Below the pieces are notes generated by a model. The model saw only the letters and a program-made list of their open reading frames with translations. It had not been told where the DNA came from and did not search any database. A stretch of 64,000 bases of DNA from Physcia stellaris (lineage: Eukaryota; Ascomycota; Lecanoromycetes; Caliciales; Physciaceae): contig JABSSW010000031.1 in NCBI GenBank assembly GCA_018902385.1, positions 1 through 64,000 of the forward strand, given 5' to 3'. Of this stretch, positions 1 through 55,100 are shown piece after piece (within the stretch, counting starts at the first letter, position 1; the number at the start of each line of letters is the position of its first letter). The position numbers were made by a program, and so were the translations under genes.

Positions 1-1010
1 ATTTTCTCGTAAAATTTCGGCAGACGATAGACGCGATATCAATTCTTCATCGTGAATTCATAAATGTATCAATCTGTTTCGACTGAATCTTTTTCGACGA
101 GTTTAACACAATGTCGCATTCGCATTGCTGACAATCGTACATAGTCGTCGTTCAAAAACAAAATCAAACGTGTATTATGCTCTGAAATTTCGTCGACAGC
201 GAAATTTTAATTTCTCAAAATTCAGTTTCAAATTTTTGTTCTGTGTCTGTCAATCGTATCAAGAAGAAAAAGTATAATCATTTTATGATTCGATTTTGAT
301 TCGAAATGCTGAAAAACGACGTCGCGAGCAATTTTTCAAATTTTCAAAAAGTTCACATTCATTTCATCGTTGACGATGATTCTGAGTTTTCGATGTTTTC
401 AAGTCGAAATATTCTGTCAATTTTCTTGCGATCTCGTGTATTGCATAACTTTTCACGAATTTAACGTCTGAATGATTGTATTGTATCGCGTTTTGATGTT
501 TCGCGTTCGTGAATTTCAAACGTCGACAACGCGATCGACATGATCATCGACGAAAATTTTGAATGTTTTTTTTTCGTCGTTTGTCGAATCGATTCTCGAA
601 ATTGATTGCGACAGAAACGCGCTTTTTGTCGGTGTCGACATGAATGAAAAATGTCGTCAAAAGATTTCGTTCAAACAGAAATTTTCGACGTTAGAACGAA
701 TAAAGTCTGATCGCGACTTCGCGTTAGCGTGATTTGACGATGTGATTCTGAAACTTCGCTTGAAGTTTCAAAGTCAGATTGATTTCAACTAATCAAATTT
801 CGAACTCAATCTGACAAAAAGTATGTATGTTGATGATGTATGAAATAATAAATGTAACGAAAAGCAAAACAAAAAACAAAGCGTGATTCTGAATCGAGTC
901 AACGAAAATGATTGATGTGATGAAAATGTAAAATAAAAGTAAAAAAGAAAATAAAGTAGAAATCGAAAATATACTGAATGAAATCGAATCGAAATCGCTG
1001 TCGTCTCGTT

Positions 1011-1612
1011 GAAATTAGCGCGTTTGAAATTGTTTGCAGACAATAATTATATCAAAATCTTTTCATTTTCTTTTCGTCTTTCTTGAATAGAGCGATGGAC
1101 GAAAAAAAAAACCTGAAATCGAATTGAATGATATGTTTGAAAAATCAAAAAAAAAAAATTCTCGAAGCGTGATGATCAGACTTCACTCGATAAAATGACG
1201 TTGTTGAAACTTTTAACGCGTTTGAGTTTGTCTGCAGACAATAACTATATCAAAATTTTTTTTTTTCTTTTTCATCTTTCTCGAGTAAAACGATGTATGA
1301 AAAAGAAATCTGAAATCGACGTCGAAATGAATGATGATGAATGAAAAATCAAAAAGAAAAATTCTCGAAACGTGATGATCAGACTTCACTCGATGAAATG
1401 ACGTTGTTGAAATTTTTAACGCGTTTGAATTTGTCTGCAGACAATAATTATATCAAAATTTCTTTTCTTTTTCATTTTTTTTTTGAGTAAAACGTGTATG
1501 AAGAAGAAATCTGAAATCGACGTCAAGATGAATGATGATGAATAAAAAATCAAAAAAAATTCTCGAAACGTGATGATCAGATTTCCGTTCGATAAAATGA
1601 CGTTGTTCGAGT
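1011..1612. repeat. Three-copy tandem repeat of about 200 bp
   Basis: Copies are marked by the landmark GCAGACAATAA(T/C)TATATC at about 1036, 1234 and 1437, so the period is 198-203 bp. Each copy continues with a T-rich tract, an A-rich tract and the word CGTGATGATCAGA, and ends with ATGACGTTGTT. Copies 2 and 3 begin at a TGTCTGCAGACA palindrome. No coding sense is visible. Confidence 0.75.
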
Positions 1613-4296
1613 CTGAATCATGCTGATAGCATGCGAAATGACTCGTGACGACGACGATTCTTTTCTGAAATATCGAAATCAGACGATTTATAAATGTTGA
1701 TTTCGATATTGAGTTTGGCGTTTGTCGTTTTTCGTCATGTGAATTCGCTTCGAGAAACTGACGACGTCTCGACTGTTTCTCAACACGATTACGAAAACAG
1801 ATTTTTGCATGAAATGTTGAAAATCGACGAGAATAAAAATGACGTCATTGAATGTCTGTCGACAACAGCGAAAATTTTCATTGTTTGAGCTTTCGTCTTG
1901 TTAAATCTCCGAACTCGTGAAATCGTGATGTGAATCTGATTCGACGTGAAGCAATTGTGTTCTTTGATAATTTAACTGATTTATGAAAACAACGTTAAAA
2001 CTACTTACGTTTTTGCAAAGAACAGAATAGAATCGCGAACATGTCTGATTGAATTCGAACGCTGAATTGATTTATCGATGATAACGCGTTGTCGATCTCG
2101 TGAATCGAAATTGCAAATTAGAAAATGTTGACGTTGTGTTGAATGTTTTGACGTTTTCGATGTTAAACGCGTCGAAAACGCGTCTGCGTTGAACTTTATT
2201 TGATCAATTCAAATAACATTGATTGAAAAGAAGCGATCTGATCGTGAGCTGAAATTTGAAATCGCATATAGAAAAAGTGAATGACGACTATTGATTGAAT
2301 AAATGATGAAATCATTGTATGACAAATGATAATTCGTGAATGAGAATCGTACGAAAGCAAAAACGACAAAACAGAAAAAATTATACTTTCATTGCAATCA
2401 CGCGATCATTTCGGCAAAAATCGTTTACGAAAACGAAATGATCGAGATTTGTAATTGTTCGTGATAAAAACATTTGATATATTGAACAATTTCGTTTTGT
2501 GATTTTATACGATGCTTATCAATTGCGAATAGATTCGAATAATGACGTTAAATCACATATCAGACATTTATCATTTGAAACAATCAAGCGAATTTACAGA
2601 GTGCTGGAAACGATCAATCAGAACTATCAGAAAGTTTTGTATGACAAACTATTCATTTCAATCTCGAGATGAAGTTCACACGTCGAACATCGATATTCAT
2701 GTGAAATAACGCGTTCGATCAATCGATCATTTCGTTGTGAGTTTCATAACTTTAAAGTTTCATTCAATGACTTTACGTTGAACATGTCGTCTGTAAACAA
2801 TATACAATTGATCAGCAGTTGATAAAAACGTTGTCTGCAAACAATATGTATTCAAATTCAGTTCGCGATCGCATTTCAACATCGCAAATTGAAAATCGTT
2901 GTTATGTGTCGACATTTCTTTGACATTGACAAATATAGAAAATCATGTCGAAAAAATTTCGAAAATGTCGCGAATCTTGAATATGCATGTGATTGTTGAT
3001 TCGTGACGATCGTATTGTCGATGATGTACGCGTTTATGAATTTGAATTTATACGATTTAATTCGATGTTCGTCGTGATGTGATTCTGATTATAATTAACA
3101 TAATCTTGACGAAAAAATTCAATTGAAAATTTTTCGTGTTGATTTATCGACACGACTACTTGCATTGTCGTGAAATGTTTCGTTTAAAATTGAGAAAAAT
3201 GTGAATAAAAAAACGATTTGTCGAAAAAAAAAATTGAACGAATACGATCAAGCAACACTGTGTTGATCAATTTGTGAATTGATACATGTCGAACGAATTT
3301 ATTCGTTTTCAACATTTGAGAATTCGTTTGTCGTAAAATGAAATGAGAAACGAAATGACATGAAATTTGATATATTTTCGTCGATTGTGTGTGTAAACAT
3401 TCAGATTATCGACGCAAATCTGAATTTCGACACGTTTGATTATTGAAAGTTCGTCGTTGATTGCGATTTGAAAAAATGATTTGAATCGTTGTTTGTGTCG
3501 TTTTCGCATGAAAAAAACGAGCAATTGCATTAGACGAAAAATGATATTCAAAATTTTTGACAATTTTGTATTTCGTTATCATCAGCGCGAATCGATGTTT
3601 GTGAACGAAAAAATCGTTGATTTCGCGTTTCAATCATCAAAAATGATTTTTTCGTCGTTGCGAAAAATGAAATCGATGAAATTGATTAAAATGATTTGCA
3701 CGTTTTGAAACAAACGTTGAATCTTTTTTTGATGAAATTTTAATAAAATTGCGCAAGTACAAATGAAAAAATTTCGAATGTCGCGAAATGTTCATCGTTT
3801 TCGTCATGTCGCAATTGATCAAAGTGATCGCGTGAAAAAAAAAAAAATTAAAATTGTGTTTTTGATTTTCGATTGTTTGAACAACAAATTGTGCTGATCG
3901 AAACAACATCATTTTGAACGCGACGACTAGAATTGACGCTTGTGCAATGAAACGAACACATTCAATAACGAAATCACGTGAAGTATAAAATAAAACATCA
4001 TGATTGTAAATGAACGATTGTCACGTTGAAAACGATCAAGTGTTTTAGCGCGAAACTCTGATGCGCGTGTCACTCGACGAAAATCGTTGAACGTTTCAGA
4101 TTTGCTGATCAATCGTTTTTTTTTTTCACGTTTCATTTTTCATGAGATCGAGAATAGCGTTTTTGATCAGTCGAAATCCAAACATCGATAACAAACATTT
4201 TCGAATTCATTAATCGACAATTGTCGAAGAAATCATCATGACAGATGTCGAAATTAGTGTTTTTGTATAACGACTGTCGACAGACGACATTCTTTT

Positions 4297-4485
4297 TCTG
4301 TTCGTTTGCAGACGACATTTTTTCATCTGTTGTTTGCAAACGATATCTATTTTTCATTTGTTGTTTGCAAACGATATTTACATTATTTTTCATCTGTTGT
4401 CTGCAGACGATATTTATTCCCCGTTTGTTGTTTGCAGACGATATTTATTTTCATTTGTTGTTTGCAGACGATATTTATTTTTGTC
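4297..4485. repeat. Minisatellite, about 30-bp unit, five to six copies
   Basis: Units of the form CATTTGTTGTTTGCAGACGA followed by TATTTATTTT repeat about every 30-34 bp between 4297 and 4485. Variation between units is mostly C/T and A/G exchange (TTTGCAAAC versus TCTGCAGAC). Long overlapping open frames here are translations of the repeat, not genes. Confidence 0.8.
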
Positions 4486-6994
4486 GTCGACTAATTTGCA
4501 AGCAGAATTCTGTTCAAACAATTTTTCGACTGTTTTTTTCGGATGTTCGTTTGACAAACAAATCAAGTCTATTTACATGAAATTGCGTTTCAAGATGCAA
4601 GATATCGTCGTCGTCTGCGAAAAAAAGAAAAACGCTAAATCAAGTTGTCGAGAACTATGTGATCGACAATTTCATCAAAAAAATAATGTTATTCGAAAGC
4701 GAATATTAAACAAGTACGCGCATCTGTATGAGAATGATAAGTTTCAAATTCGTTTAAGAAATGTATCGTTTTCGCTTCGAAGATCGTCGCGAATGAATGA
4801 ATGATCGATTGATTGTTGATAAGACGAACTGAATTGACGATAAATTGAATTCGACATCTGGAAATTTGAACGCGAAAAATCGTTCGAAAACGACAAAAAA
4901 CGTTCGAAAACATTGAGCTTTCGAAATAAATTTTGAAATGAATATGAAAATCGACAGATGAACATTGTGAACGATAACTCGAAATTCTCGACGTCGCAAA
5001 TGACAATATCAGTCAATTTCACTCTGTCAATCTGAACGTTCGACGATAAAAATGAATCGACATCGAAACGAACGAAAATGTAAATTCTTTTCGATCGTAT
5101 GATGAAACGACGATTGATGATGTAAATGTTCACGAAAAATTTCGAACGAAAATACTTTTGTGTTTACAATCGTTTGATGAAAAAATTCGCGTTTCGTTTT
5201 ACTGAAAATGTCAAATCTGTTCATCAGAAATCAAATCACGTGAACATGAATGTCGATGTAAATCAGTTGATCTGTCGAAAATGTTACGAAATAAATTTCA
5301 AAAAAATGTGTTCGACGTGTAAAATATGATTTCGAATTTTTTTGATTCATTGCAATTGACATGCTAATCTTTCGTTCAATAAGTTTCGTCATGAATAGAA
5401 ATCAATCGTCATTATGTTTTTATGTCAAAAATCAATCGTTTTGAAAATTCGAATTGAGTTCGTGATGTTTTCATCATCGACACAAAAACGAATCAGCAAT
5501 CGCGCATCAACGCTCTCGTGAATGTCGAAAAAGATCGAGAAATTGCTCGTCGTTACTATCGTGATTGAATAATCGCTTTATCACATTTCATCGCGAACGA
5601 TTGAACGACGCGATTCGTTGAAAATGTGAAATGTTCTGTATGCGACACGAAATATGTTCGTCTAAATTTTCAACTGAATGTGTGAGTGATTCGAAATCGA
5701 CACATATCGTATTGTTGCGATTTTCATGTTTGTCGTCGCTGTTGAATATACGACGCAAAGAATCACGAAAATTGTATGTTTTGTAAAACGCTGTCGCATG
5801 AAAGCAGTTGATGATGAAATGACGTGCAAACTAAAAAGTTTTCGAGTTCTCGAAAATTTTCATAAAGTGATTGAATTTCGAATGAAATTGAACATGACAT
5901 TCGATTTTTTTACATTTTTCAAATAGTAAACGTAAGAAATTAAAATAAAATATCAATGAGCATTGATACATTTCATGAATTTTTGAAATTTGTTTGACTG
6001 TCGAGAATGCGATGATTGACATTCGAAATGTGTATACGTGATCTGTGCATAGAATGAAATTCAAAAATTTTGTGATGCGAATTCAATTACGATGCTGTCG
6101 CGCTTGACGACATCAAACGATGAAAAAAAAATGTCAAGACGAATATCGTTTAAACGATCGACGTGTGAAAAAAAAAACGCGTTTTTCAGATGAAAAACGC
6201 AAAAATGTTCGTGACGTGAATAGCAACAAATGTTGAGAACTCGAAATGTGCACGAAAGTGAAATAAAATCGCTGATAATGTCGAAAATGTCAACGACGAT
6301 ATATTAGTGACGATTCGATCAAAAAAATCAAAAAAAAAAAAAAAAATTGTTATTTGAAAAGCGCGAATTTCATTGTTGTGATTTTTTTGAAAAATGCTAG
6401 TGATGCAAAATGAAATGTGACGAACGATTGATGTTTTCAAATCAGTTTATTCGAAAACGTTTTTCGGAAATATTCGAGCTTTGTTCATATGAGTCTCAAG
6501 TTGAGTACTATCGAAAAACGTTTCAAAAAATTGAATTTTAAATGATTCGCTCGATCAAATGCTGAAATTGTAAATCAGACGATTTGATGTCGTCACAAAA
6601 GACAATTTCAAGTCAATTTCATTGAAGACGTTTTGAATCGAAAATCTAATGATACGAATGAATCAATAAATGATGCAAATCATTACGACAATTTGATTTC
6701 GTGATTCAACGTTGTCTACAGTGCGCAAACAGACGATTACGTATGACAAAATTTTGTTAATGAAAAATTTTATTAAAATTTAATTCGATAAGTTTGAACA
6801 ATATCATTGAATCGATGATGAATTCGAAATTTTATATTGAAAAATTTTAACAAGTCGACTTCGACATGATTTGAAAAATGAAAACATTCAAATGAACATT
6901 TTTGCACTCATATTTGAATGTCTCGCTAAAAGTCAGAAAAAATTTTTCGTGTACGTCACGTCATGATGTTCGCAATCAGCATGAACAATTATGC

Positions 6995-7235
6995 ACATGT
7001 TGTTTGCAAACGAAACATCAAAATACGATGAGCACATTGTTTGCAGACGATATGTATTCAGAATAAATATTAATAATGCAATGAGCACATTGTTTGCAAA
7101 CGATATGTATTCAGAATAAATAATGCAATGAACACATTGTTCTGCAAACGATATGTATTCAAAATAGATATTAGTAATGCAATGAGCACATTGTTTGCAA
7201 ACGATATGTATTCAAAATAAATAATGCAATGAACT
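6995..7235. repeat. Minisatellite, about 50-bp unit, four to five copies
   Basis: Units read ATGAGCACATTGTTTGCAAA followed by CGATATGTATTCA(G/A)AATA and AATAATGCA, starting near 7029, 7081, 7129 and 7180, with a diverged leading copy near 6995. It shares the GTTTGCAAAC core with the 4.3-kb array but the rest of the unit differs. Confidence 0.8.
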
Positions 7236-10200
7236 GTGATGATGTGTTGAACAGAAATGAAAATTGAACTCAATTGAGATTTTAATCTATTAAGTTATGA
7301 CAAACGCATTTTCGATTTTTTTTTTTTTTTTTTCTTTTTCGTCGCTTTCGTTTGTCGAAATTTCTGATTGATCATTGACTTCGTTCGACTTTGTTTTTTT
7401 TGTTTTTGTCACATCGACATGAAATTTTTGAACGCGTCGACATCGTAAAATTGATTGCAAATGCAAACTTGTTGAATTTCGAAAATAAACGATTCATGCA
7501 TTCGTAAAGATGATCGTGATCAATTTTTTTGTGCGAATATGATGTTGAACTCATTGCGTTATTTCTTTTTGTATCGTGAACGAGAATCGAGACATCGTTA
7601 TGATGCGATTTCGATACGCGTTTGCTGTGTCGAAAAAAAAGCAAACGATGAGTCAATTCGTTCGCTTCAATTCGATTTGATCGACGATTTCGATCACACG
7701 TTGAATGTTATTGTTTTTGTTGAATTTCAGCTCGATGAACAGATGATCGCAATCGAAAAATGAAATACAAAAAAGCTTTTGATGAACGACAAAAACAAGA
7801 ATTTTTTGAAACGTGTCGTCGACAGAAAATTCTAAAGTGAAAACGACGTAATGCAATCGATTCAAAAATTGACGAAATCGAGCTTTGTTTCAAATGCGCT
7901 TTTTGTCGCGAAAAAAATCGTTTCATTCGAAGAAAATTCGAAGACGATCGATTCATTTGTCATTGACGTAATATTTTTCAAAAACGTTCGTTTTGTTGCT
8001 GTTCGAATCGTACTTTTTGAATGATCGTTCAAAAACAATTTTAAATTTGACATCATCGAGCAATTTAACGACAAAAGCATAAATGAAATCATGAAGCTTT
8101 GCAACTTTCTTCTTCGACAATCGAGACATGAAACGACGATTCTGTTTTTGTCGTTCGACGAAATTCTTGATGTGTTTTGTAACTCGTGTTTTGAAAATGT
8201 TTCAAATATTTTGAATGTAAAGTTGAACAATCAATTCGATTTCAGTTGTCATGATTTTCTGAACGCGTTTGTGATTGATCATATCGTCTTTGTCGTCATA
8301 ATCGAAAATAAAAACTTTTATTCGATCGCGAAACAGTTTGAATGTGCTGTCTTGTTTGATCATAATCGCAACGATGTCACGACAATCTTTGAAACGATTT
8401 TGCATGTCATCGACAACAAGAGTCAAGCGAAAAACAAAACGAAAATCGAAAACGAACAAAAAATCGAATTTTCAAATGATGAAATGAACGAGCAAAAAAA
8501 AATAGTCGTATTTTTGAATGCACTTTTTATAGTTGAGTTCGCGTCGTCGAACGATTTTGACATTCGACGAATCAAAATTTCAATCGATCGTGAGTAGATG
8601 TGATTGTCGAACGACGCGTCGTTTGACGATATTTTGTCACAACTCGCTCATCGTGACAAACAAAATGTCGCTCACGATGAATTGAAAAATTCGAAAAAAA
8701 ACGTTGATCATGAAATTGTATCGTCGCTGTTCGTCAACGAAAACGAGTCTCAAATCATTGAAATCATTGTGACATTGAGTGATCATGATTTCGATGAATA
8801 AAAAATAACGATTGAGCGTGATCGTGATGAAAATGTCGATTTTTTTTTTGAACAAAATTCAGTATGAACGATGACGAGAAAAATTTGCGAAAAAAATTCA
8901 CAAACAGAAAAATGTGACGTTCGAGCTTTCGAATCGTTGATAATTCATGATGATCAGAAATCAATTTCGACGAAATTGTGCATCGATTTCAACTCTTGAA
9001 AAATTGACAAACGTAAACGATACTTTTTGCGTAAATCATTGATGATTTCGATTGACGTCGTATGAAAAAAATTGTGCGCGTCAATCAATGAAATGTCGAT
9101 ACGATGTTTGATTGTTCGTCACGTTTTGAATTGATGAGTTTTGAATTTGAACGATGTCGATTGATCATCGTTGAACTTGCTGTGCACGCTTTCAAAGATC
9201 AAATCATTTCGACGATTAACGATGTGTCATCGATCGAGTTCTTCGTCGCTAAACGACAAATTTTCGAAGTATGTGTTGACGAAAGATTTGACATCTCGAG
9301 CGAAAATAAATCAGTAATTTCGAATCATGATATAAACTTTGTGAAACGTTTGTTCATCGTTCGTTCGAAAAGCGTTAATGAATGTCATTTCGACGAAACA
9401 AAATTCGACGTCACGAGTCAACAAAAATGAATACGTCGCGTTGCGAACTCGACGAGCGACGCTAATCTTGTCGTGAAAAAGCGTTTTTCAATGTTCGAAA
9501 CACGATGTCTTTCACAACAGCGTGATGTTTTTGACAACGAAATCGACATAATGCAAACAAAAAGTATATTCTATTTCGAAATCAACTCAAATTTCGTTCA
9601 TGAATTCGTCGAAAATGCGAAAACGCTGTTTCAAATGAGTGATGAAAATCGTTCGCGTTTTTTTAAAGTTGATCGCTGAAAATGCAACTTTTGATTTCAA
9701 TCAAAAATCATCAACACGAGTTCTTTGAACTTCGCAAATTCGTTGATCAAAGTGACAACTTGAATTCAAAAGACGACAAAATTGTCGACTGAAACGAATC
9801 GAAAATTGTTCATGAAATGATCGACATCGTACATGTGAATTTCTTCTTTATTGTGCGTCTGAGTTTTGACGATTTCAAAACTGAAAAAATGACGCGTTCG
9901 AACATTGATCGACACGCTTGCGCGAATCGCAAATAATACAATCTGATTTATTCAAATCTTCTGCGTTGCATTTTTCAAATGACGAGATTTCGAAAATTTC
10001 ATGTGAGAAAAGAAAACGTGAATATTGTAATTTCAGTCTCGATCATTGAAATCGATTTTTAGACGAAAATTCATGATTTCATGCGATTTGTGTTCGTCGA
10101 TGAGCATCTTTGAATCGTTCATCACACGTTGAAAATAAAATGAAACATACGACAAATTCAAATCGTTTTTCAAATCTTTTAACGTTTTGAAATGCGCAAC

Positions 10201-10460
10201 GAAATCGTCGACATCGAAACGTCGACGCAATTTTCAGTGAAAATTGATTTGTGTCTGCTCGAAAAGAACTTCGAAAACGACGATATCGAGACGATACAGA
10301 GAGAACTGATCGCTAAATAAATTGTTTCAGTTTATGTTTCTGTAATTCTGAAACGAGCCGTCGCGTTGTAGCATTGTCGAAAAATGTAAAAAAACATCAA
10401 TGTTGAAAAATGATTTTGAACGATTGTTTTGCATCATACGTCAATATTGCGCAAAATTCA

Positions 10461-11816
10461 TCATGATTGCGAAAGCATTTGTTTTTTTTTTTTTTGAAAT
10501 GATGTTCTTTTCTGAAATGATGTTATTTGAACGACTTCATTAACGACTGTTTTGACTTGCACGACGATCGTGAATAAATTCATCACAAACGCAAATAAAT
10601 CGCGAAATTTCATGCAAAATGTCTGTTGTTGATTGATTGATAATAAAATTGTCATTTGACAAATGATTGCTATTGTTTTTTTGCACGTCATTGTTGAAAT
10701 GATCAAAACGATTTGATTTTGCGTTTGTTTTCGACTCGCTCGAAAAACTGAAAAAATTTGAAAATTCGAGAAAAAATCGAAGTCGATGTAAATGAGCGAA
10801 AATGAAGATTTTTTTGATTGTTTTGAAAATTGTATCGATGAATTTTGCATCGTCGATGATTCGAGTCGCGAACGAGCTGTAAATGACGATGACGATAAAA
10901 AAAATTGATTTTTGACGCGAGAAGACGACATCAGCAATTGCGTCGACGCATTTTGACGACGAAATGACGAAAAAATTCGTTGCGAAATCGCAACGTTGAA
11001 TGAAAACGCGATTTCGACGAGAATAAACACATCGATCACTGTCGACGTTTTTGAAAAATTGACTGTCGATATGTTAACATTTGAAACATGAAAAGACATC
11101 GCTTTCAATGAGAATGCTGTAATGCTTTTATTTGCAGTGCTAATACAATCTCGAAAATCAGAAAAATTTTTGAAAACGAGATTGCTCTCGACATCACGCT
11201 GTCTGTTATCAGTGATGATGAAAAATGATTTGTTCGCTCTAAATTTTTTAGAAGACGTCAACGATAAAATCTGAATCGAAAGCGAAGCGACTTCTGAATT
11301 CTCTACATACGTTTGAAGAGAAAAACGAGATTGCGACGATATTGAACGTGTTGCAAATTCGAATTTTTGAAATATTGTCGATGACACAGTCGTCGTCAAT
11401 GAATGTGATTCATGTCGTCGTTTCACATGAAAAAAAGCAATCTTCTGAAAATTCGTGACGTAAATAGAGATGTCGATTTTGATGAGCTTCAACAAAATGA
11501 CAAAAAACGTGAATTCTGTGATCTCAAAAAAAGCTGTGCTGATGAAAGAAATTGATGTATTTGTATTGAGCTCGTTCATTGATTCATTGATGTCGATGTT
11601 CGCTTTCTTGTTTGTTTTATATCTTTGAATGTCAGTTTTTTTCGCTGTCTTTTTCTTCTTCATTGTATTGTATTTGATTGAGCGATTCATTGTCACAACA
11701 ATGCGACAAGTCTCACTGTGAACAAATGACAAATGAGCAAAAAATTGATCGTGTTGTTCGCAGACAAAATATCTGTCAAAAAAAAACAACAAATATTTGA
11801 GAAAAATAAAAAGCAA
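10461..11816 (-). other. Long chance open frame (451 codons), probably not a gene
   Basis: This is the longest open frame of the AT-rich block. Its translation has not a single glycine, proline or tryptophan, is rich in S, F, I, K and N, and shows no domain, signal peptide or membrane pattern I recognise. That composition follows from the absence of GG and CC in the DNA, and the length from the scarcity of TAA/TAG. It may be a mutated remnant of a transposon gene, but nothing in it allows a family call. I do not annotate it as coding. Confidence 0.6.
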
Positions 11817-12389
11817 ATCAAAAAAATGATTGATAGAAAAAATGAAATTCGTTTGATGTTTGAAGAAATATTACAAGCGTTAATGCGAAAAGATTTTGAT
11901 TTTCGATTAATGAAAAATGTTTGATCGCGTTGATTGTTGCAAAATGAATGTTGATTACATTGCGCATTAATCGCAGCAAATCTCATCGTGCGCAATGATT
12001 GAGACGAATTGTTGCAATTGACTCGATGTCGAGCAATGAATTCGAAACAATGAAATGAAAATATAATTTGCAAACAGCATGATTTCAAAACAATGAATGA
12101 AAAATGTAATTTGCAAACAACATGATTTTAGTATTTTGAAAACATCATGATTAAATTCATGTTGTTTGCAGACTACATTTTCATTTCATTGTTTCGAGCT
12201 CGTTGTTCGACGAGATTGAAAACGAATGCGATTGTTGACAATTTGAATCGTCTGATGTGCATTGCAAAAAACAAATGATCTAAAAATGAAATAAGATATT
12301 CAACGTTAATGCTCGATAAAGTAAAGCGAAACGATTGAGTCAAGACGAATGACTTTTAAACGTGATTTGATTGATCGCAAATTTTGTTG

Positions 12390-13190
12390 TTGAACGTTCA
12401 TATTTTTGAATGATGTGAAATTCTCGCAATTGAATGACTTTGCACATAATCGTTAAATCAATTTCGTGTCGACGACGTTGAAATTTTTTTTTCGAATGTT
12501 ACAGAAAAATTTCGATAGCGATTATTTGATCATTTCATTTGAAATGATTGTTGAGCGATATGTTGTCGCGAACAAGCTGAAAAAATCGATTATCGTTATT
12601 TTGTATGAAATCAAAATTTCACATCGCATTGATTATTCACACACTGATCACACGAATTTGATTTTTACGACGTTGAATTGCGTTCGTTCAGAACGTCAAA
12701 CAACGAGTTTTCGATGATAGTTTACATTTTTGAGTGATAATCGTTGAATTGTAAATTCGATTAAAAGCAAACGCGCAACTTTTGCTGCTAAATGTTCAAA
12801 AGTTTGTATGAGTTCAAAGCTTCGCAATTGAATCATTTTTTACGCAGTTGTCACATCATTTTCATTTTTGCGAAATTGAATTTTTTTCATCGAGCGTTAC
12901 ACATATCATGTTATCATTAAATATCATATGCAAATGTATCATGAAATGACATCATGATTGCTGAATTGAAAATTTTGAATGAGCGCAAACTGAAAAATCG
13001 AATTGTCATGAATTTGTATAAAGTTGAATTTTCGCAATTGAATAGCAATTCATTCATTTGTCACATCATTTTCATTTTTGCAACATTGAATTCTTCTCAT
13101 CGAGCGTTACAGATATCAGATTTCACATGTTTATCATCTGTTATTTCAAATTTTGATGGAAAGTCGTCCAGACGAGTGACTTAAACAATC
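12390..13190. repeat. Degenerate ~200-bp tandem repeat next to the NLR relic
   Basis: Landmarks such as TTGTATGA/TTGTATAAAG, CGCAATTGAAT, CACATCATTTTCATTTTTGC and CATCGAGCGTTACA recur near 12400, 12607, 12805 and 13013, giving a spacing of about 200 bp. The last two copies are the clearest. A second motif, GTGACTTAAAC/GTGACTGAAAC followed by CGATTTGATTG, occurs near 12350, 13167 and 13227, the last one abutting the NLR relic. Function unknown. Confidence 0.45.
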
Positions 13191-25598: not shown

Positions 25599-26210
25599 TT
25601 TTTTTAGGAAGTCGCTATTTGCACATTTTCTTTTATTGCGTGCAATCTTTCCCAAGAATTAAAGCTTACGAGACGTGAAAACAAATTCTTCGAATATCAA
25701 AAAGATGAGAAGAAAATCACTTTTGAATGCGTTTCGCATCAAAATTTCATCATGTATTCATCAAAACAATTCGCATGCTAGCTTTCGATCAATTAGATCA
25801 AAACTATTACAAAAAAATTAATTCGTTCGAATTCGAAATCTTTGCAGCAATGTATGATCGCGATATCATTTTCGCAAAACTCTTCGCGAATGAAATTGAC
25901 ATTTGCATATTAATTCTTCGAGAAATGCGACGTTATGATCTCGTCGACCGATTCGAACTCATTGATGATGAATAGACGTTTTACATAGATATTTCTCGTC
26001 ATATGAAATGAAACAGCACGTTGCCGAAAATGTAAAAATGATACATGAAATTTGATGTGACATATGTCTCAAAAATGTTGCGAAAACAATTTTCGATGTT
26101 TGAAAATAATTTTAGATAATTTTTATCGATAGTTTATCGATAAGTCGAAATCATTTCGTAAAATTGCACGCAGTAAAAGAAAATGTGCAAATAGCGATTT
26201 TCTTTTTTTA
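25599..26210. mobile_element. MITE copy A (hAT-like by 8-bp target duplication), heavily mutated
   Basis: An element of 596 bp (25607-26202) with terminal inverted repeats of about 40 bp: the left end reads GTCGCTATTTGCACATTTTC and the right end is its near reverse complement, GTGCAAATAGCGATTTTC. It is flanked by the 8-bp direct repeat TTTTTTTA at 25599-25606 and 26203-26210. The element is the same family as 42509-43111, in opposite orientation. It keeps an ATCGATA-type palindrome near 26127-26145. Its interior is AT-rich, CC/GG-poor DNA. An open frame of 82 codons inside (25727-25975) has no known domain. Eight-bp duplications point to the hAT superfamily; no transposase is encoded. It ends clearly, but was mutated after insertion. 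Confidence 0.85.
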
Positions 26211-26985
26211 AATTATAACGCAAACGTAAACAAACATCACAAAATTGTTAAACGAAATATATTAAAATTTTCAAATAAAATGTTGACGATAATAAACATA
26301 TAAAAAAAACAGCGTTCGATGACGTTGATGAATTTTTTAAATTTCACAATAGAAATCGTCAAAGTAATTTTTTTTCGTTTTCGCATCGATTCAATTTTGT
26401 GCGAAAACGTTAAAAACATGTCACAATTTATTTAAAAAACATCGAATTTTTTTGAATTTTTCATATTATGATCATACATACATGTAACAGATTTCAAATA
26501 ATATATAGAATAACACAATAATATTCATGAAACAAATCGTGTACGTGTATTTCGTATTGTTGTGCGATGAAATATGTTGTTAAACGCGACTGCGAAATTA
26601 ACGAGATTTAATCAATCTTTTGAGATCGATTAGTTAACGAGCATTACGAGTATTCGTAAAACTTGTTGACTCTGAATTTAGCGTCGATTGTGATTCGATG
26701 AAATTATTCTGCAGACACGCTAAGGTCGAAAAATTCTGCTTGCGAGGTCTGCGAGGTCTGCGACGGAGGTCGAAAAAACGCTACTCTGACAACCCCTAAT
26801 GCGCACTAAGAACGGATAGGGAAAGGGAGAAAATTAAAAATTTTCAGCGTCAAGGATTTTATAGTTTTGTGCACCTCGGTGTACTACGGTAGATTGACCT
26901 AATTGACTCTCGGCTTTGTCCTGAAAGGGCTGCCAATGCCGGGCCATGGGATACAGTAGTATATCGTCAGGGACACTACAGTGTC
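26211..26985. other. AT-rich flank grading into the 3' side of the metalloprotease gene
   Basis: 26211-26690 is AT-rich like the block around the MITE. From about 26690 the composition becomes ordinary, with a short GCGAGGTCTGCGAGGTCTGC duplication near 26739-26765. No gene recognised. Confidence 0.4.
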
Positions 26986-27583: not shown

Positions 27584-27668
27584 CAATTTTTCTGCGGGCA
27601 GCCCCTCTCCCAAAGCCCCCTACAAGATATCTAACCGCCTTTCGTCTGGTGTATGACTAGTTGCGTCA
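27584..27668 (+). repeat. MULE left terminal inverted repeat
   Basis: Starts CAATTTTTCTGCGGGCAGCC and continues through CCAAAGCCCCCTACAAG and TAACCGCCTTTCGTCTG. It matches the reverse complement of 31390-31474 with only a few differences. Confidence 0.9.
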
Positions 27669-27926
27669 CCTCCCTTGCGCCCGCATTTCGATTGTTAATA
27701 TACTTGCTAAAAAATTAGTCAATGCATCTCTCGTCGAGTGTTTTCATCGAATGATGAACAACACATTCTGCAAACTTCATGCGAAAACGAAAAAAAAACT
27801 TGACGATCAAAAATAAATAAAATATCGATTTGCTCTCGATCGTTTCACGATTTACACATTTCGGACTTCACTGCAAATCTCTTCTTTTTCCAAATATATC
27901 GTTTCTGTACTTCTCATTTCGTCGTC

Positions 27927-30900
27927 ATGAATATTGAATCAAATCGCAATTATGATGCGACGAACAAGCGACGACGAATTATAAAGATCATGTCGCCTGC
28001 GCATTTAAAACCTCCGTACATCGATGAAATTGCTGAGAGTAAAAAAGAAATCAGAACTCGTCTGAATGATTATGTCTTTTCGAAAAACTTCGCTTTCGTG
28101 AAAATTAATGATGCAAATAAGAAACGAAAACGTTATAATTTCAAATGTCATCGCCATGACGATAAGTCTCGTGATTACAGAAAGATTGCAAAAAAAGATA
28201 AACAACGATTCAATATCAAACATAACTTCAATGATTGTTCGCATTTTGTAAGATTGATGTACTACAAATCGAAACAGCATTATGCCTTAAGAATAATAAA
28301 TTCGAAGCATAATCACAAATTGCTTTTCAATTTTTATGATTTGAAACGTGCTCACAGAACTCGTGATCCTGATTTACAACAAACAAAGCAATTAGGTCGA
28401 AACCTAGTCGAAGCGAGTACGAAATATAAACAAATCAACAGAGTGTTTCGATGTTACGAGTTTCGGCTCAATGCGATAGAATATAAGAATCTTTTATTGA
28501 AAGTCAAAAAAAGAACATTTCAGAAGAAATTACGCTGAGCTTTGAGAAAATTAGAAAATCGTGAATTTCACGTTCGAATATCTGAGCGATATGTTGTTGT
28601 TGACAATATACGAATTCATAAGAAAATCGACTTCTTCTGATTCTGCAACGAGAAGCAGATACACATGACTAGAAAATTTGAAAACGAAACAGTGATACAA
28701 ATCGATGCAACGTTCAATATCAACAATTTATTGCTTTCTTTATTCGTGTTGATGATAATTACGAATACTAATACGACGTATTTCGTGACTTATTGTTTCG
28801 TGACTTTCGAATCGATCGAAATTTTCATGTTTATATATGATTGTATGCGAAATTTTTTTTTCTACGATGATTGTCCTGACTCTGCTGTTTTTTTAGACGA
28901 TTTCGCTGCAAATCTCATAGTCTCAATGACGAAAAAACGTCGAATAAAATCGATTTTACATCAACGAGAAATGAAAATCGAACGTGCGAAAAAATGCATG
29001 AAAATCGTCTTTAAAATAGAAATCGAAATGTCGAAAATCGAAAGCGACTGCAAATTTCAATGTTGCATTTGACATGCTGCTCAGACGATCAAGAAACGAC
29101 TCATTAAAAAAAATTATAAAATCGAAACACGCGAAACGCACGCTGATCGTATCTGAACCTGAATCGAATCATCTATTCTCGAAATCTTGAAAATTAATCG
29201 AGAAATCATGCTTTCGACGATGTACTTGAAAAAACAAAAATACATTCGATCGTTCTATGACTTCAAAAAGCATCAATTCGTGAAAACGTACACTCGTTTC
29301 AATCGTAACTTTGAATGCAATTTCAGTCAACGAGTTGAAAATATTCATCTCGATATTAAAAAAATGACGAATAGACAAACGTCTCCGAATATCGCAGCAA
29401 TTCGAATAGACGAGCAGATTAAAAAAAAAATCATGATATATGAATTAAAATTAAATGATCAACGAGCGTATCTTTCTAAATCGTTGCAGCACGATCGGCG
29501 ATCGTTCAAATGCATTAATTTCTATTTTACTCACTATGCTTTGCTAAGAATTTTCGAGCAATGAATAGAGATCAAAAAATGAGTCATTGAGATCGAAAAT
29601 GACGAGAATATTGCGTTCGTAAGAAATAAATGCGAAAACGAATGCGAAAATTCGCTGCGTTACGCTTTGCTCTGCAAATGTTGATTGTATCGCTGTGTCA
29701 TTGAAAAAATTTCGATATCTATTTCATTGATGCATTCTCGTTGACTTTTTGACGATTCCGAGTATGTTGCTGACTGACAGATGAATTTCAATGTCGATTT
29801 CGAAATCGAAAACTACTTTCGAATAACTGTGTCCGAATTTATCAACATCAGCAACGATGACAACGATGACAATGACGAAAAAAAAGATGAAATTGTCGCG
29901 TTAATCAATACAATTGCGATCTCGTTTTCGAAATTCGCGAGAAATCGTTACGTTGCTAGAGATCAGATTCTGCTTGAAAGCATTGATGTTGATCTTCTTG
30001 AAATGCACGAATTCATTGAAAATTTTCACGAACAAAAAAAATACGTCAAGAAGTTTGTCGATCTGATGAATATCTTGAATCAACGATAAAAAAAGAAAAT
30101 CAACAACAAGCTTTTTTTCAGATTTTTTTCTTCTGCAAAGCTCAACGAGAATTTGAAATTCAAAAAAGATCGAAAACGTGCGTTGTGTGATTCAGAAATC
30201 GTCGTCGAAGACGAAACATTAACACGTAATCGTGTTCGAGCTCAAATGAACTCTCAACGCAATAAAATTTTGCATAAGAATTTAAAAATCAAAAATTGCG
30301 AGACGAGAAATTTGCAAACTCAATATCAAGCAATGAGTGAAAACGAGACAAAAGTATCGCAAGTGCAAACGAATTACGTACTGATCACACAATTGCAAAA
30401 GACAAAAAACGAAATGTTGAAAAAAAACGTTCAAATGAGAAACACGTCTGAAATCGAATTTCAAAAGAAAACGTCTCTTGATTTTTTCGTCGATGAATTC
30501 TCTTTTCTGCTTTCGATAGACGTGTTCTCTGTCAATAAACGAGAAACGATCAGAAATTCAAAAACTTCTCAAAATCAAAGCAAATCGATGTTCAAAGTTT
30601 TTTCGTCATTTTTTTCTTTCGAATCTTTCTTCTTTTCTGAATTTTTTTTCTTTTTCGATGCGAATTTCGAAAGCGATGACGCAAAGCCGTTCAATAAACA
30701 ATATTGAAATCTGAGTCAAATCAAAAAACAAAATCAATTCGTCAGTCAAATTTTGATCGAAAATCAGCAAACATCGATTTTTATTGCTCAAAACACTCGC
30801 AATCGACGCGAAATGACTTCGAAACTCATCAAGAAAATCGAATCGCAAAAGCGCGTTGACGAAAAAAAAATTAAAAAAAAAATCGAAACGAAAAAGCAGC

Positions 30901-31016
30901 GACGAAAAATCAAGAAAATAAAAAAAAATAAGAAGCGTGCGAAGGTCATGAAATCTAAAAAAAAACGCATTTCGCAATTAGAAAACTTGTTCGCAAATCT
31001 CAATTTTTCGCAATAA
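27927..31016 (+). pseudogene. MULE transposase frame, broken by TGA codons at tryptophan sites
   Basis: A single frame of about 1030 codons starts at ATG 27927. By hand reading it contains eleven TGA codons and one TAA (near 30087) before the terminal TAA. It has no tryptophan codon and almost no glycine. The N-terminal ~200 codons resemble the FAR1/WRKY-GCM1-type zinc-binding region (FKCHRHDD, NDCSHFVRLMYY, NSKHNH). The DDE core starts at IDATFNINNLLLSLFVL and continues YCFVTFESIEIFMFIYDCMR and DDCPDSAVFLDDFAANL, which fits the first two acidic residues of the MULE catalytic triad. A SWIM-like region follows (CENECENSLRYALLCKC-stop-LYRC). The C-terminal ~250 codons are K/Q/E-rich and probably coiled coil. 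Stops fall where relatives have Trp (for example DFF-stop-FCNEKQ). There is no net frameshift over 3 kb. Confidence 0.88.
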
Positions 31017-31389
31017 AGTAATTAAATAAATAAAACTCACTGCTGCAATAGAATTAATTCTTTGAATTTCTTTTCTCTTTATTTCAGTCTTTACGAATCT
31101 TATTGCGTGATGAAAAACTCGAACACGCGTTGAACTGTGTCAGAAATACGTGTTTATGAATCAGAGCACGTCTAACAGCTCAAACACGAAAAAAAAAAGT
31201 CATATGATCGTCGATGAAAATGAATACGAAATCGAAAACGACGAAAAAATGTGTTTTCGACAAACGAAACGTGATTCCGCTTGATCTCTAATCATCATAT
31301 CAACTCTGCAGGGGCGACGGCGAAATATATCAGATGAAAATCATGCACATCGAGCGCATCAGAACGACGACTAGATATGCTCAGTGACT

Positions 31390-42282: not shown

Positions 42283-42500
42283 ATCCCCTCCGCATCCAAT
42301 TAGTGAAATTTAGCGTGTTTTCACGCGATCTTTCCTCCCCCACTTCAATCACCATTACTCCACCAAATTTACGTGTATATGTGTATAATTCAGTGAAGGA
42401 ATTCGATAGTATATAAACATTCAATAATTGAAATATGATTACATTCGGAATTCGTTTGAAATCATTAAATTATTTTCAAATGTCTCGAAACGTTTTCAGA

Positions 42501-43119
42501 TTTCTTTAGGGAGCCGCTATTTGCACACCCCCTTCTACTGCGTGCAATCCCCCGGAATGGTTCCGGGCTTATCGATAAGTTATCGATAAGGGTTATTTAG
42601 GGCTAACCTCCAAACACCGGGAGTTGCTTTCGCAACACCTTCAGCAACGTGCTGTTTCACTCAATATGGCGGCGAATACCTTTGAAAGACGTCGAGTCAG
42701 CTCATTTCGACTCAGAACATCTCAACAACAACGGGAACAAAGCGGAGGAGCAAACGGAGAAAACACAAAGCGAATTAGGAGATTGAGGGAAAATCTCGAA
42801 GGCCTTAACGACCTTGACGACCTCGAGCTCTGCGGAACCAATACCGCGGCCATTCAATGTTGCAAAGATCTCGAATTCGAACGAATTGACTTCTTTGTAA
42901 TAGCTTCGACCTCATTGGTCGAAAGCGACAATGTATCTAACATGCGAATTGATTTGATGAGTACATGATGAAATTTTGATGTGAAACGCACTCAAAAGTG
43001 ATTCCCTTCTCATCTTTTTGGTACTCGGAGATTTTGCTTCCGTCTTCCGAAAACTCTAATTCCAAGAGAAGATTGCACGCAGTAGAAGAAGATGTGCAAA
43101 TAGTCGCTTCTTTTCTTTA
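42501..43119. mobile_element. MITE copy B (hAT-like), nested and hardly mutated
   Basis: An element of 603 bp (42509-43111) flanked by the 8-bp duplication TTTCTTTA (42501-42508 and 43112-43119). The inverted repeats read GCCGCTATTTGCACAC at the left and GTGCAAATAGTCGCTTC at the right, with inner ACTGCGTGCAAT/ATTGCACGCAGT. Near the left end is CTTATCGATAAGTTATCGAT. It aligns, in reverse, with MITE A at 25607-26202, but keeps many CC, GG, CT and AG words that A has lost. It sits inside the mutated piggyBac-like element and is itself nearly unmutated, so it arrived later. A 114-codon open frame (42624-42968) has no recognised domain. Confidence 0.88.
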
Positions 43120-43515
43120 TTGATCAAAACATTCGTATGATCATTTTTTCGAATCATGATAAATTTTGAAACATTCAAATGACACGCATAAATTCATTTT
43201 ACATGTCATACAATAATCAAACGTTTTACGATTCGAACGATGTTGTATATTGACATTTCTGAAATTGAATGTTTGACGTTTTCGAAATTTCGTGTGAAAA
43301 TTGATCGAACAATCATTTCATTTACAATACGTCGATTTGACACATTTTGACGATCGATATATGATATTTGAATTTCGTAAAAATTCATCAATCAATTTTT
43401 GAATAAATACACGTCGATTTCGATAATCAAAATTCGTTTGTGATTGATGATAATTTCAAACGATGTATGCATTCGTATTGATCGAATTTATCATGTATTC
43501 GATCATTCGTTTCGT

Positions 43516-44880
43516 TCATTTGAATTGTTCAAATCGTGATATCGTCAATTTATTTCGAAATTGATTTGCACGATTCACATGATTTATATGAAAATTGTAT
43601 TGCATTGCAATAATGAATTGTTTGACGACGATTTTATTGAAATCGTTACGAAAAAACATATCGATCGTGAATCGAGTTTTTCGTGATGTTTGCTCGTTTG
43701 TTTGTGAAATATATGCAATAATAACAAATGAAATCACGTGATTTCGTTCGAGATTTTTTCATACGAAACAATTGATCAATTCATTCACAACTTCATTGTT
43801 CTAAATTCAATTGTGATTTTTTTGCAGCAGTTATTTTTTTCAATTCTCGTGATATATTTATTGCATTGTTTCGTACGATGTCACAAATATCAACATTGAG
43901 AATCAGAAAAGCTCTGACGAAATGAGAATTCGTGAAAAAATTGTCGATAAAACAAACGAAATGATGATAACGTAAATTGCGTGTAATTCGTTCGCAAAAA
44001 ATATATATTGTTTTTTTCGTAAATGAGAAATTAATTTTCATAGCAATGATTTCAATAGTGTTTTTTTTACGTTTTCGAATCGTTTTTGAAAATATATCGA
44101 TCGTGATATCGTTTTTGTGATATTCGAAATCATCGCGAGATTTTCACATCATGAAATCGTGTAAAATGTTTTTATCATTGATCAAAACGTATAAAACGAA
44201 ATTTTTTTTCGTTGATTTGTGTGATAAACGAAATTTGTTATTCATACGATCGTGAAATTCGATTGCGAATTCGTCAATTGCAAAATGATTTTCAAAACGA
44301 GTAAACGAATATAGTTGAAATTTGAAAACGTTCAAAACGTTTTCGATTTTTCAAAATCATGATGCATTGTTGTATGACATTTGTTGATTAAATTCAACGT
44401 TCAAATGACGTTCAATGATTTGATATCGATCGCGATTGAATGATAAATTGTTGATATTTTTTTGAAATCAAAATGATTGAATTGTTGAATTTTTTGCAAA
44501 ATGCTGAATCATGAAAATGCGTATAACAATTCATTGACCTAATTTCATCATAGTGAGTACATTTCAGTTGATTTTTTTGATATAAATCGTTTGATTGATG
44601 TGATGAAACAATAAATCGAATATCGATTGCAAAAAAAACAAAAACAATTGAACGAATTTTCAAAACGTCATACAAACGTGATTCAATTGAAATGATCGAT
44701 AAATAAATGTAATAAAAAATGTATAATTAAATTCAGACGTTTGAATGACTTTTTGCTGTTTCAATACAGTGAAAAATCGTTTTTTCGATTTCGAAATGAA
44801 AGCGTTTGCATTGACGCGTGTTTTTTTTTTCTTTTGCACGATGATTAATTCAGATGTTGATTCAACAAATGACATGTTGT
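43516..44880 (-). pseudogene. piggyBac-like (DDE_Tnp_1_7) transposase remnant
   Basis: Several broken minus-strand pieces, read in transposase order: IDEFAIEFHDRMNNKF (44335-44144; compare IDEaM..F.GR in the family), FVCFIDNFFTNSHFVRAFL with ICDIVRNNAINISRELKK (44041-43793; compare the vyvDNFFTs...GTvR...P stretch), and MQYNFHINHVNRANQFRN (43737-43516; compare YN..M.GVD.aDQ). The pieces lie in more than one frame, so the gene carries indels or introns as well as base changes. It has no intact product. A possible N-terminal piece precedes them at about 44880-44412. Glycine and proline are missing at most conserved positions, as expected from loss of GG and CC. Confidence 0.7.
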
Positions 44881-45033
44881 TTATATGATAAAATAGACTC
44901 GATTCAGACGATTCAAACAACGTCGCAATGATCAGAATAGACGTATTATTGATGGAGTAAATGGTGATTGCAGGTGGGGGGGGAGATCGCGAAATAAACA
45001 CGCTAAATTTCACTAATTGGATGCGGAGGGGAT

Positions 45034-46112
45034 TCCACAGCCGGGCCGACCTTTTTCCGTCTCCTTAGAAATGGAAGGAAAACCTGACCCGCAGCAACAC
45101 AGTGACTCAAGATTCCTCCCTGCAAGTTACTATTGCCTTTGGAGACTTATCGCTGATAGAGCTTCAGCGTGAACTGTTGACTAGGCTGACACTTATCCAG
45201 GCACTTGCTCGGGGTTTCCCATGCACTAGTGAACGGTGGCGTTTTAGATTCCGCGGTTACGGGCCCCCTAGGCCCTGGAGCGAAGCGCTCTAGGGGCGAT
45301 TCCGGGCCTCGCTTTAGTTCGCTGCTAGCTAACTGCCACCTTTGTGCCACACCAGTGCATGGGGTATCATCCGTGATACTCCCACCCCGTCCTTCGTTCC
45401 CCGTACGCCCAACAATCATATACAAGATCTTCACACTTAGACCCCGTCGGCGGCTCACCAAGCATGTACTCATTACTGTTGCATCTATTCGTTCACAGGG
45501 ACCAGAGGATCGACGCGTTAGATGATCGTCACCTTGTATATTGCTGTTGAAGGGGCCGAAGTCGGACAAGCCGCTGCTGCAAAGTGTTCCATGATCCATA
45601 CTCGCGCCGTAACTCAGATACCCTGTCACATTGACAGGTCCGTTTTTCGAACCCAGGATCTTCTTGGCGAAAATTTTGCGGAGTAGGATGATGCTTTATT
45701 GACAGCGTCTTCGTGGGTGTCGAAGACGCAAGAGCAGTTCAAATTCAACGCTGGTAACATCATCTTTATTATAATGTGCATGGATGACCGTCTTGAAGTA
45801 GGTATTCGCGACTACATATTACGAATTAAACGATGCGTCAGAGGGTACAATATATGGCCAAACTCAGAATAACAGAAAGCCCCAACGGGACAAATTCGGA
45901 CTGACTAAGCGATTTTATTCAAGGGACGGTTTTTTCTTTGATTCTAAAAGATTGTGTAAGCAAGGGTAAATACAGGACGAATATGGACTAAGTAAGCAAT
46001 CTCATGTAAGGGATGATCTTGTTTTCTCTTTGTTCCAGATAAAAACTATCCATTATTCGTCACGCACACTCCATCCGCAAGCGCAATCTTCTTCGTCAAC
46101 AAGACTTCAAGC
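45034..46112. other. Intergenic, no gene recognised
   Basis: Ordinary composition. It contains a strong hairpin-like CCCTAG..GAGCGAAGCGCTC..CTAGGGG near 45267-45297 and a second, (A)GACGCTGTCA/CTTCGTGGGTGTCGAAGACG-type, near 45690-45730. The longest open frame (minus, 45147-45629) has no domain. The right part is the promoter of the APH-like gene. Confidence 0.4.
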
Positions 46113-47351
46113 ATGCCTCACAGTATCTCACATTTTTCCACTGGCAGTGAAGCCTCGGAAGCAGAAAGTGAATATTCCGAAACCTCAACCATTGAATACG
46201 AGCACGAGAGTTTCGAAACATTTCGCACCAAAGTAGAAGCTCTATGCAAGGGAATATGGACTTCTCCATTGGTAAAGTTTGATGTCCAACGAGGTCGCGG
46301 AGGGTCCTACAACCGAATCGTCGAAATTACAGTCCACGAGCCTAACTCACCGGCAACTCCAAAAGAGTACATTCTGCGCGTACCGCGATTTGAGAAGAAT
46401 CGGCTTGACAGAGATTTTGCAGCCTTGCAGTACGCCCGTCAACACACAGAACTTCCTATTCCGGAAAATGTCGCCATAGACCTTACGGCAGATAATCCTC
46501 TCGGGGGGCGCTACGTTGTGCAAACCCGCCTTCCAGGTGTAGCTTTGCATGATGTATATCCTACATTGATACACGCGCAGAAGTGTAGCATCGCACAGCA
46601 GATTGGTCACATGTATGCTTCTTTACATACTATAGAAAGTCCGGTCGCTGGAATCATTGAACAGCATTCAATCTCTGGTTTTGTCATACGGCCTTTTGAT
46701 CTCAGAGGCCCATACCACACCACGCGCGCCTCTCCTGCATCGGAAGTCGATTGTGTTGCTGAGGAAAATACAGATACCATCAGCTTTCTGCTTTCTCGGT
46801 GCGCGCTCTGGAAAGGTGAGATTCTTCGTATTGATTCCGAAGATGTTGTCGGAGTTACATATTTCGACCGTTTATCGGACGCGTTAATTAGCATGCATAA
46901 CCTCGGTCAACTACGGGACAACGAGATCACGCTCTGCCATCTTGACCTGGCGCCACGAAATATCCTGGTTTCTATCCAACCTTCAAATACGTCAATCTGC
47001 ATATCTGGAGTTCTGGACTGGGACAGCGTGGTCTTTGCACCCAGAGTTATGGCTTGTGCCCCACCAATGTGGTTATGGAACTGGGCAAGCGGAGATGAAG
47101 AGGAGAATGAGGCAGAGGCTGGGGAGCTCTCTCTCTCCACTGATGACCAAGAGATCAAAAGCATCTTTGAAAAGGCTGTTGGGGCGAAATTCTTGCAATT
47201 CTGTTACAAGCCGCAGTATCGAGTCGTGAGATCATTGATACATTTCGCAATTTTCGGAATGCATTCCAATGAGGATCTCAAAGAGGTCGACAAGGCACTG
47301 GAGGAACTTGAAAGATTAAAGCCTTATCTAGCGGATGAAGGTGCTAATTAG
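46113..47351 (+). CDS. APH-family (aminoglycoside phosphotransferase-like) small-molecule kinase
   Basis: A single-exon, intact frame of 412 aa. The N-terminus is Ser/Glu-rich. The N-lobe carries RGRGGSYNRIVEIT (nucleotide-binding loop region) and EYILRVPRFE with the candidate lysine replaced by the arginine seen in many fungal relatives. The catalytic loop is LCHLDLAPRNILV (about residues 273-285; H-x-D and N) and the metal-binding motif GVLDWDSVVFAPR (about residue 300), followed by the family's typical PPMWLW. Such proteins are numerous in ascomycetes and their substrates are mostly unknown; antibiotic resistance should not be assumed. Base composition is ordinary. Confidence 0.88.
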   Translation: MPHSISHFSTGSEASEAESEYSETSTIEYEHESFETFRTKVEALCKGIWTSPLVKFDVQRGRGGSYNRIVEITVHEPNSPATPKEYILRVPRFEKNRLDRDFAALQYARQHTELPIPENVAIDLTADNPLGGRYVVQTRLPGVALHDVYPTLIHAQKCSIAQQIGHMYASLHTIESPVAGIIEQHSISGFVIRPFDLRGPYHTTRASPASEVDCVAEENTDTISFLLSRCALWKGEILRIDSEDVVGVTYFDRLSDALISMHNLGQLRDNEITLCHLDLAPRNILVSIQPSNTSICISGVLDWDSVVFAPRVMACAPPMWLWNWASGDEEENEAEAGELSLSTDDQEIKSIFEKAVGAKFLQFCYKPQYRVVRSLIHFAIFGMHSNEDLKEVDKALEELERLKPYLADEGAN

Positions 47352-54963: not shown

Positions 54964-55100
54964 TTAGTTCTAATTGCCAAAGCATTTTGAAGCAGTCGCG
55001 AAAATACTGATATGCTGATACGGTGCCAAGAACTTAATGTATAACCGATGCCTAGGAAAGAGAACAAAGGCCATCATCCAACGCACGTTAATACTCCACG

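Follow-up and report, generated by a model that had tools for sequence, protein, structure and literature searches.

Does the AT-rich DNA at positions 43120-44930 record a repeat-directed mutation process whose target differs from that of classical RIP? A sequence-only reading had proposed C-to-T change before a pyrimidine (CpY), with CpG spared, in departure from the Neurospora-type rule. The locus belongs to Physcia stellaris, a lichen-forming fungus (Caliciales, Physciaceae), whose DNA came from an axenic ascospore-derived culture and was sequenced by Nanopore (R9.4.1, Guppy 3.0.3) and MiSeq (PMC7513301). The window, i.e. the whole stretch of DNA analyzed, makes up the initial 64 kb of a contig of 550 kb, in a genome of 44 Mb.

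Data and scope

The assembly analyzed had 43.97 Mb in 147 contigs; the published one is larger, with 46.57 Mb in 184 scaffolds (PMC7513301). Compositional and alignment data covered the window and 69 loci. Three of these loci were 10-kb genome samples (L066, L067 and L068), which represented the composition of the wider genome. Odds ratios are observed over expected values, strand-symmetrized. Pairs listed for counting were those with a GC contrast and a length of at least 250 bases.

Composition of the window

Scanning in 250-base steps revealed four CpY-depleted runs in the window, together 18,250 of 64,000 bases (28.5%). The features mapped were:

43118..45033, minus strand: main piece of a PiggyBac-type DNA transposon copy, CpY-hypermutated (BLAST to L025 1399-3321, 82%)
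42283..42500, minus strand: terminal 218-base piece of the same PiggyBac-type copy, lightly mutated (CpC 7/23, CpT 8/19)
42501..43117, no strand: MITE-like insert of ~610 bases splitting the PiggyBac-type copy, not CpY-depleted (45% GC, CC odds 0.86, AG/CT 0.95)
1..13000, no strand: CpY-depleted tract (GC 0.328, CC odds 0.02)
25751..26750, no strand: CpY-depleted run overlapping a mutated MITE-like relative (25608-26196)
27584..31300, plus strand: 3.7-kb duplication, both copies CpY-mutated to unequal degrees (other copy on contig C63)
32001..33000, no strand: AT-rich comparison stretch without CpY depletion (GC 0.366, AG/CT 1.07)

The signature proposed for 43120-44930 was recovered, with odds ratios of 0.01 for CC, 0.20 for AG/CT, 2.92 for CG, 0.42 for TA and 1.44 for CA. 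The same look had been claimed for 1-13240, and there the values were 0.03 (CC), 0.46 (AG/CT), 2.52 (CG) and 0.32 (TA). A hand count of 43141-43320 was reproduced for G+C (50), CC+GG (0), CT+AG (1), TA (8), CA+TG (29), AC+GT (19) and CG (10, where 26 C and 24 G predict about 3.5); AT came to 26, not 27. The genic stretches 14001-25000 and 45501-64000 had odds of 0.91 and 0.94 for CC, 1.04 for AG/CT, and 0.91 and 0.90 for CG. In 500 mononucleotide shuffles, CC+GG averaged 718 for 1-13240 (sd 22, minimum 649) vs 23 observed, and 81 for 43118-45033 (sd 8, minimum 58) vs 16 observed.

Per base, CpC fell to 0.0007 in 1-13000 vs 0.054-0.057 in the genic stretches of the window, and AG/CT to 0.025 vs 0.065. 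CpA did not change (0.070 vs 0.069-0.071), TpA was somewhat reduced (0.036 vs 0.048) and CpG was not reduced (0.068 vs 0.054). The apparent CG enrichment therefore results mainly from the fall of C and G. AT-richness is not sufficient for the signature, because 32001-33000 has 36.6% GC, yet AG/CT is 1.07, CG 1.20 and CC 0.60.

Among the genome samples, L066 and L068 had ordinary composition along their full extent. L067 contained 2 kb of CpY-depleted DNA, a third kb that was partly depleted, and a CC-rich end. This end (8001-10000) is unusual CC-rich, CG-poor DNA, with CC odds of 1.37-1.52 and CG odds of 0.51-0.58.

Other observations concern the remaining content of the window. Ten frames scanned within 13919-60237 gave an ankyrin-repeat protein, a sulfatase, an APH-like kinase, a fucose-specific lectin, a DAO oxidase, a fungal transcription factor and a weak MFS match; 3 of the 10 had no match. 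Tandem arrays lie at 1015-1607, 4297-4482 and 7028-7234 within 1-13240. Positions 8001-11000 of the CpY-depleted tract had 14 other genome matches (67-94% identical), several of them near contig ends or on small contigs, so that this DNA is perhaps subtelomeric.

C-to-T changes in repeat families

The stretch 43120-44930 belongs to a PiggyBac-type transposon of about 2,147 bases with terminal inverted repeats, as revealed by PF13843 in copy L025 (E 7.8e-33). In the window copy, the PF13843 match (C31:43826-44452) contains three TGA. The coordinates given by the sequence-only reading were nearly right: the transposon piece spans 43118-45033, and one end of the copy, at 42283-42500, is set apart from it by the MITE-like insert. 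A genome search for this family (family 1) gave 46 matches, including the window copy itself and fragments; 30 were fetched as loci, and 29 of these were counted against L025. The reference has ordinary composition (45.9% GC, CC odds 0.85), and it is not perfectly pristine, since one TGA lies inside its transposase match.

Numbers of reference C that are now T, by 3' neighbor, were as follows:

Family 1, 29 copies against L025: CpC 3615/3827 (94%), CpT 3564/4301 (83%), CpA 569/6419 (9%), CpG 194/5062 (4%)
Window copy (row L005) against L025: CpC 157/161, CpT 154/184, CpA 14/275, CpG 2/211
Family 2 (gypsy, unrelated to family 1), 11 copies against L035: CpC 4330/4461, CpT 3994/4657, CpA 320/4451, CpG 143/4112
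Gypsy copy L052: CpC 442/444, CpT 449/461, CpA 26/444, CpG 0/410
Family 3, 5 copies against L049: CpC 1240/1559, CpT 1230/1903, CpA 426/1965, CpG 334/1811
MITE pair: CpC 38/49, CpT 25/62, CpA 6/63, CpG 5/68

The family 2 count leaves out L039 and a second short stretch of L056, and the family 3 count leaves out six short low-identity pairs. L036/L037 vs L051/L054 (about 60% identical) were left uncounted.

CpC and CpT rates were thus far above CpA and CpG rates in families 1 and 2, as in the two-copy duplication described below. The excess was also found in family 3, less cleanly, its reference L049 being partly mutated itself; this family was noisier, with 1354 transversions among 5218 changes. 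A dominance of CpA, which would have refuted the CpY reading, was looked for in the repeat alignments and was absent. C-to-T change before a pyrimidine with sparing of CpG was borne out, with two refinements: CpA is spared almost equally, and CpC changes faster than CpT. In family 1, the median hazard ratio was 1.5 for CpC:CpT, 23 for CpT:CpA and 48 for CpT:CpG.

Other types of change were few. Family 1 had 7942 C>T/G>A changes, 369 reverse transitions and 591 transversions against L025. For the window copy, 327 of the 331 differences within 43120-44930 were C>T/G>A.

The 3' base determines the target, and there is hardly any 5' context effect. Family 1 conversion was 0.97 in ACC, 0.93 in CCC, 0.93 in GCC and 0.96 in TCC; GCT reached 0.72 vs 0.85-0.86 for the remaining CpT trinucleotides.

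The type of coding damage follows the same rule. RVT_1 gave 150 scored matches among 527 candidates, and 140 of them contained stops (TGA 250, TAA 33, TAG 3). Of 78 stops newly created in the RT frame of gypsy copies, 72 were TGG>TGA, a dominance predicted by G>A after G. Viral contigs were scanned for relatives of the gypsy RT domain, in which the signature might be sought in turn, and no relatives were found.

Mutation of a two-copy duplication

The duplication at 27584-31300 allows the rule to be read with no reference copy. Its searched part (28201-30800) has one other genome match, on C63, at 90%. C/T differences vs shared C were 37 vs 2 for CpC, 239 vs 57 for CpT, 55 vs 386 for CpA and 29 vs 459 for CpG, so that 276 of 360 C/T differences lay at CpY. 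The DNA just outside the window copy has 54% and 50% GC, with CC+GG at ordinary levels; inside its left edge, the initial ~500 bases are graded. The C63 copy has a left flank of 41% GC, and at its right 239 bases are AT-rich without CC/GG.

Short or diverged repeats seem to escape mutation, because the MITE-like insert (42501-43117) and the repeat-bearing stretch 32001-33000 are both undepleted. The insert has ~45-base terminal inverted repeats and 59 genome matches including itself, mostly partial. Pieces of 104-403 bases of 32001-33000 match nine other places at 67-96% identity. RIP reportedly needs repeats exceeding about 400 bases and 80% identity (PMC4522978).

DNA methyltransferase genes

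The sequence-only reading had asked for a RID-like or DIM-2-like methyltransferase, and both kinds were found. A PF00145 profile search of the genome gave four matches, representing three genes: one DIM-2-like (L002), one RID-like (L003, on C5; its database protein has 932 aa) and RID2 (L001, on C6), which is likewise RID-like. RID2 lies at L001 850-2510, and its three exons join into an uninterrupted 513-aa model with the motifs PPCQSF, MEETFG and GNAVPP. The suggested unusual domains did not appear: in partial-protein stretches of 1001, 604 and 401 aa, Pfam gave the methylase domain, DUF7893 in the DIM-2-like protein, and nothing else. The 401-aa frame is the first exon of RID2, with PF00145 alone.

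An E-[EQ]-T motif is a mark of the RID/Masc1 family. RID2 fits this family, with a compact C5-methylase domain and no BAH/RFD in the first-exon frame, and with PPCQ and E-[EQ]-T in the spliced model. The absence of BAH/RFD is a class mark of RID/Masc1 (PMC4352252).

In a 49-row tree, which contains no Neurospora RID sequence, RID2 fell into a clade of 13 rows (support 99/100), most of them metagenomic, that also contains the lichen fungus Heterodermia. The Physcia RID was placed apart from it, in a 20-row Lecanoromycete RID-like clade (support 93/98). The node uniting RID2 with Eurotiomycete DmtA had a support of 81/87. RID2 groups with RID/DmtA-type proteins, and the DIM-2-like protein stands apart on a long branch. 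Relatives of RID2 share 60-94% identity and come chiefly from metagenomes and Heterodermia. The public Physcia protein set may lack an annotation of RID2, since the best database match is 94% identical and from another source; the database was clustered at 90%.

Origin of the C-to-T changes

The results support repeat-directed, RIP-like mutation with a CpY target, as proposed from the letters. Very probably, a RIP-like process changes C to T in the order CpC>CpT>>CpA>CpG, with a RID-family C5-methyltransferase as the putative agent. Two-copy DNA is mutated, and the freshest copies carry almost no other type of change. Duplicates would be sensed by homology, probably before meiosis, and the methyltransferase would then convert C to T, either directly or via 5-methylcytosine. 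The altered target rule would most likely stem from the RID-like enzyme or from RID2.

Slow loss of 5-methylcytosine is an unlikely source, although it would have an enzyme at hand. A DIM-2-like enzyme would methylate repeat CpY, and spontaneous deamination would erode these sites without any RIP burst. The DIM-2-like gene of Physcia has an open methylase domain, and according to a 2026 review, methylation by DIM-2 of N. crassa extends to all CpN, CpT being preferred (PMC13297926). Slow decay would accumulate other substitutions too, and the near-pure C>T change of two copies counts against it. L052 is almost fully converted, and 917 of its 920 changes are C>T/G>A, leaving three others. L022, of family 1, has CpC 109/114 and CpT 94/125 converted, with one other change among 206. 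Moreover, conversion fades within the element ends: in 12 family 1 copies, CpC conversion in the terminal 20 bases was 0.22 at one end and 0.34 at the other, and it was about 0.9 at 100 bases or more from the ends. This fading argues against slow decay, although several copies have AT-rich flanks beyond the element, some of about 20% GC.

C-to-T change at CC resembles the spectra of APOBEC3G and of UV, and lichens are exposed to sun. The target choice of APOBEC enzymes depends on the 5' base, and TC would likewise be damaged by UV. An APOBEC-like cytidine deaminase or dipyrimidine UV damage is thus contradicted by the 3'-base rule and is very improbable as the source, even with eight genome matches to the general cytidine-deaminase family. 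In family 1, TCA (265/2380) and TCG (56/1984) were nearly spared, and ACC (1039/1075) and GCC (987/1065) were converted. Within CCA, the first C changed (1335/1378) and the second rarely (125/1377). Both strands were mutated in 29 of 29 family 1 copies, and mutated CpT sites were only weakly clustered (z of at least 2 in 11 of 58 strand tests). The genome had no APOBEC_N match, a weak point since no control genome matched either.

The AT-richness of 29 of the 30 fetched family 1 loci could also reflect the multiplication of an AT-rich, CpY-poor element. Such an ancestral composition has next to no probability, being contradicted by the ordinary-composition copies L025 and L035 (about 51% GC) in two families, which also refute a uniform AT-richness of family members. 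In addition, CpT conversion ranges from 55% to 98% between family 1 copies. Unmutated CpT sites are shared only weakly, with a median phi of 0.17 among the pairs formed by 14 full-length copies, and the copies were therefore largely mutated separately. For the RIP-like reading, the survival of one unmutated copy per main family (1 and 2) is a difficulty that requires an escape or a late arrival.

Finally, methylated C misread as T in this Nanopore-based assembly is scarcely credible, given two Pilon rounds with MiSeq data (PMC7513301), a one-stranded CpY methylation that should let opposite-strand reads vote C and make the 97-99.5% conversion of L052 unexpected, and an ageing pattern that an artifact would not give. 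This pattern is the correlation of residual CpA change with transversions per base (Spearman 0.71, 29 family 1 copies), which suggests age or repeated rounds.

Comparison with known RIP systems

The Physcia process resembles RIP of Neurospora crassa in several features. C:G to T:A is nearly the sole change, on both strands and in repeats and duplications, less cleanly in family 3. Both members of a duplication are mutated and its unique neighbors, as seen on the window side, are not, genic samples are ordinary, and relatives of RID and DIM-2 are present. The target differs, as the sequence-only reading had anticipated. The N. crassa order is CpA>CpT>CpG>CpC, and that of T. reesei is CpA~CpG, then CpT>CpC, with one sign lost from the source text (PMC5496416). 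Physcia nearly inverts the Neurospora order, with TpA not raised and CpA not lost. On all four mutated stretches tested, TpA/ApT was 0.32-0.53 and the substrate index 1.34-1.56. The thresholds are >1.15 and <=0.75, respectively (PMC7882544), so these stretches would score RIP-negative.

CpT is also a main target in Magnaporthe oryzae and Botrytis cinerea, which have a RID/Masc1 gene, and there it accompanies CpA (PMC4352252); in Physcia CpC leads and CpA is nearly spared. Microbotryum and other basidiomycetes share repeat-associated C-to-T change in a non-CpA context, but their target is CpG (PMC4352252), the best protected context in Physcia. The CpG signature of basidiomycetes has been linked to a Masc2-like enzyme, and Tuber also shows CpG; the term CpC does not occur in the main text of that paper (PMC4352252). 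Cladonia rangiformis, another lichen-forming Lecanoromycete, likewise has homologs of both RID and DIM-2, and AT-rich TE tracts with sharp boundaries. Its RIP was described via GC content, with a TE peak near 16%, in a main text where neither CpA nor dinucleotide occurs (PMC12542154). The most mutated Physcia copies counted (L017, L020, L027 and L052) have about 24-25% GC.

Changes at CpC have been noted in other settings. Monilinia has CpC>TpT double changes alongside classical CpA RIP (PMC8959702). In an SNP table of Rhizoctonia solani, CpC changes are the densest CpN type, in a paper that calls the hypermutation CpG-biased (PMC4014442). The alignment-based dominant form in RIP-capable fungi was given as CpT>TpT (PMC7882544), and a survey from 2025, covering 1,239 species of fungi, concluded on a CpA preference common to RIP-like defenses (PMC12543289). 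In the open-access literature searched, no account of RIP with CpC as its foremost target turned up. A repeat-directed, RIP-like process is already known; the target rule is what is new.

Implications

The rule alters the type of damage inflicted on repeats, which is mainly TGG>TGA stops rather than TAA or TAG. Index-based RIP tools look for CpA loss. L052 has 891 of 905 CpY sites converted, yet its RIP indices are clearly negative. The RIP target range is therefore wider than assumed, and genomes with active RIP may be overlooked in surveys.

Physcia combines two RID-like genes with a simple 3'-base rule and offers a direct route to the determinant of RIP target choice. It is possible, if short of an even bet, that a lichen-fungal lineage acquired RID2 or re-tuned RID, turning RIP into a CpY-specific mutator that spares CpA and CpG. 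If so, the choice of RIP targets would be a trait of the enzyme that can evolve, and intense RIP of other specificities may go unnoticed in fungi that CpA indices score as RIP-negative.
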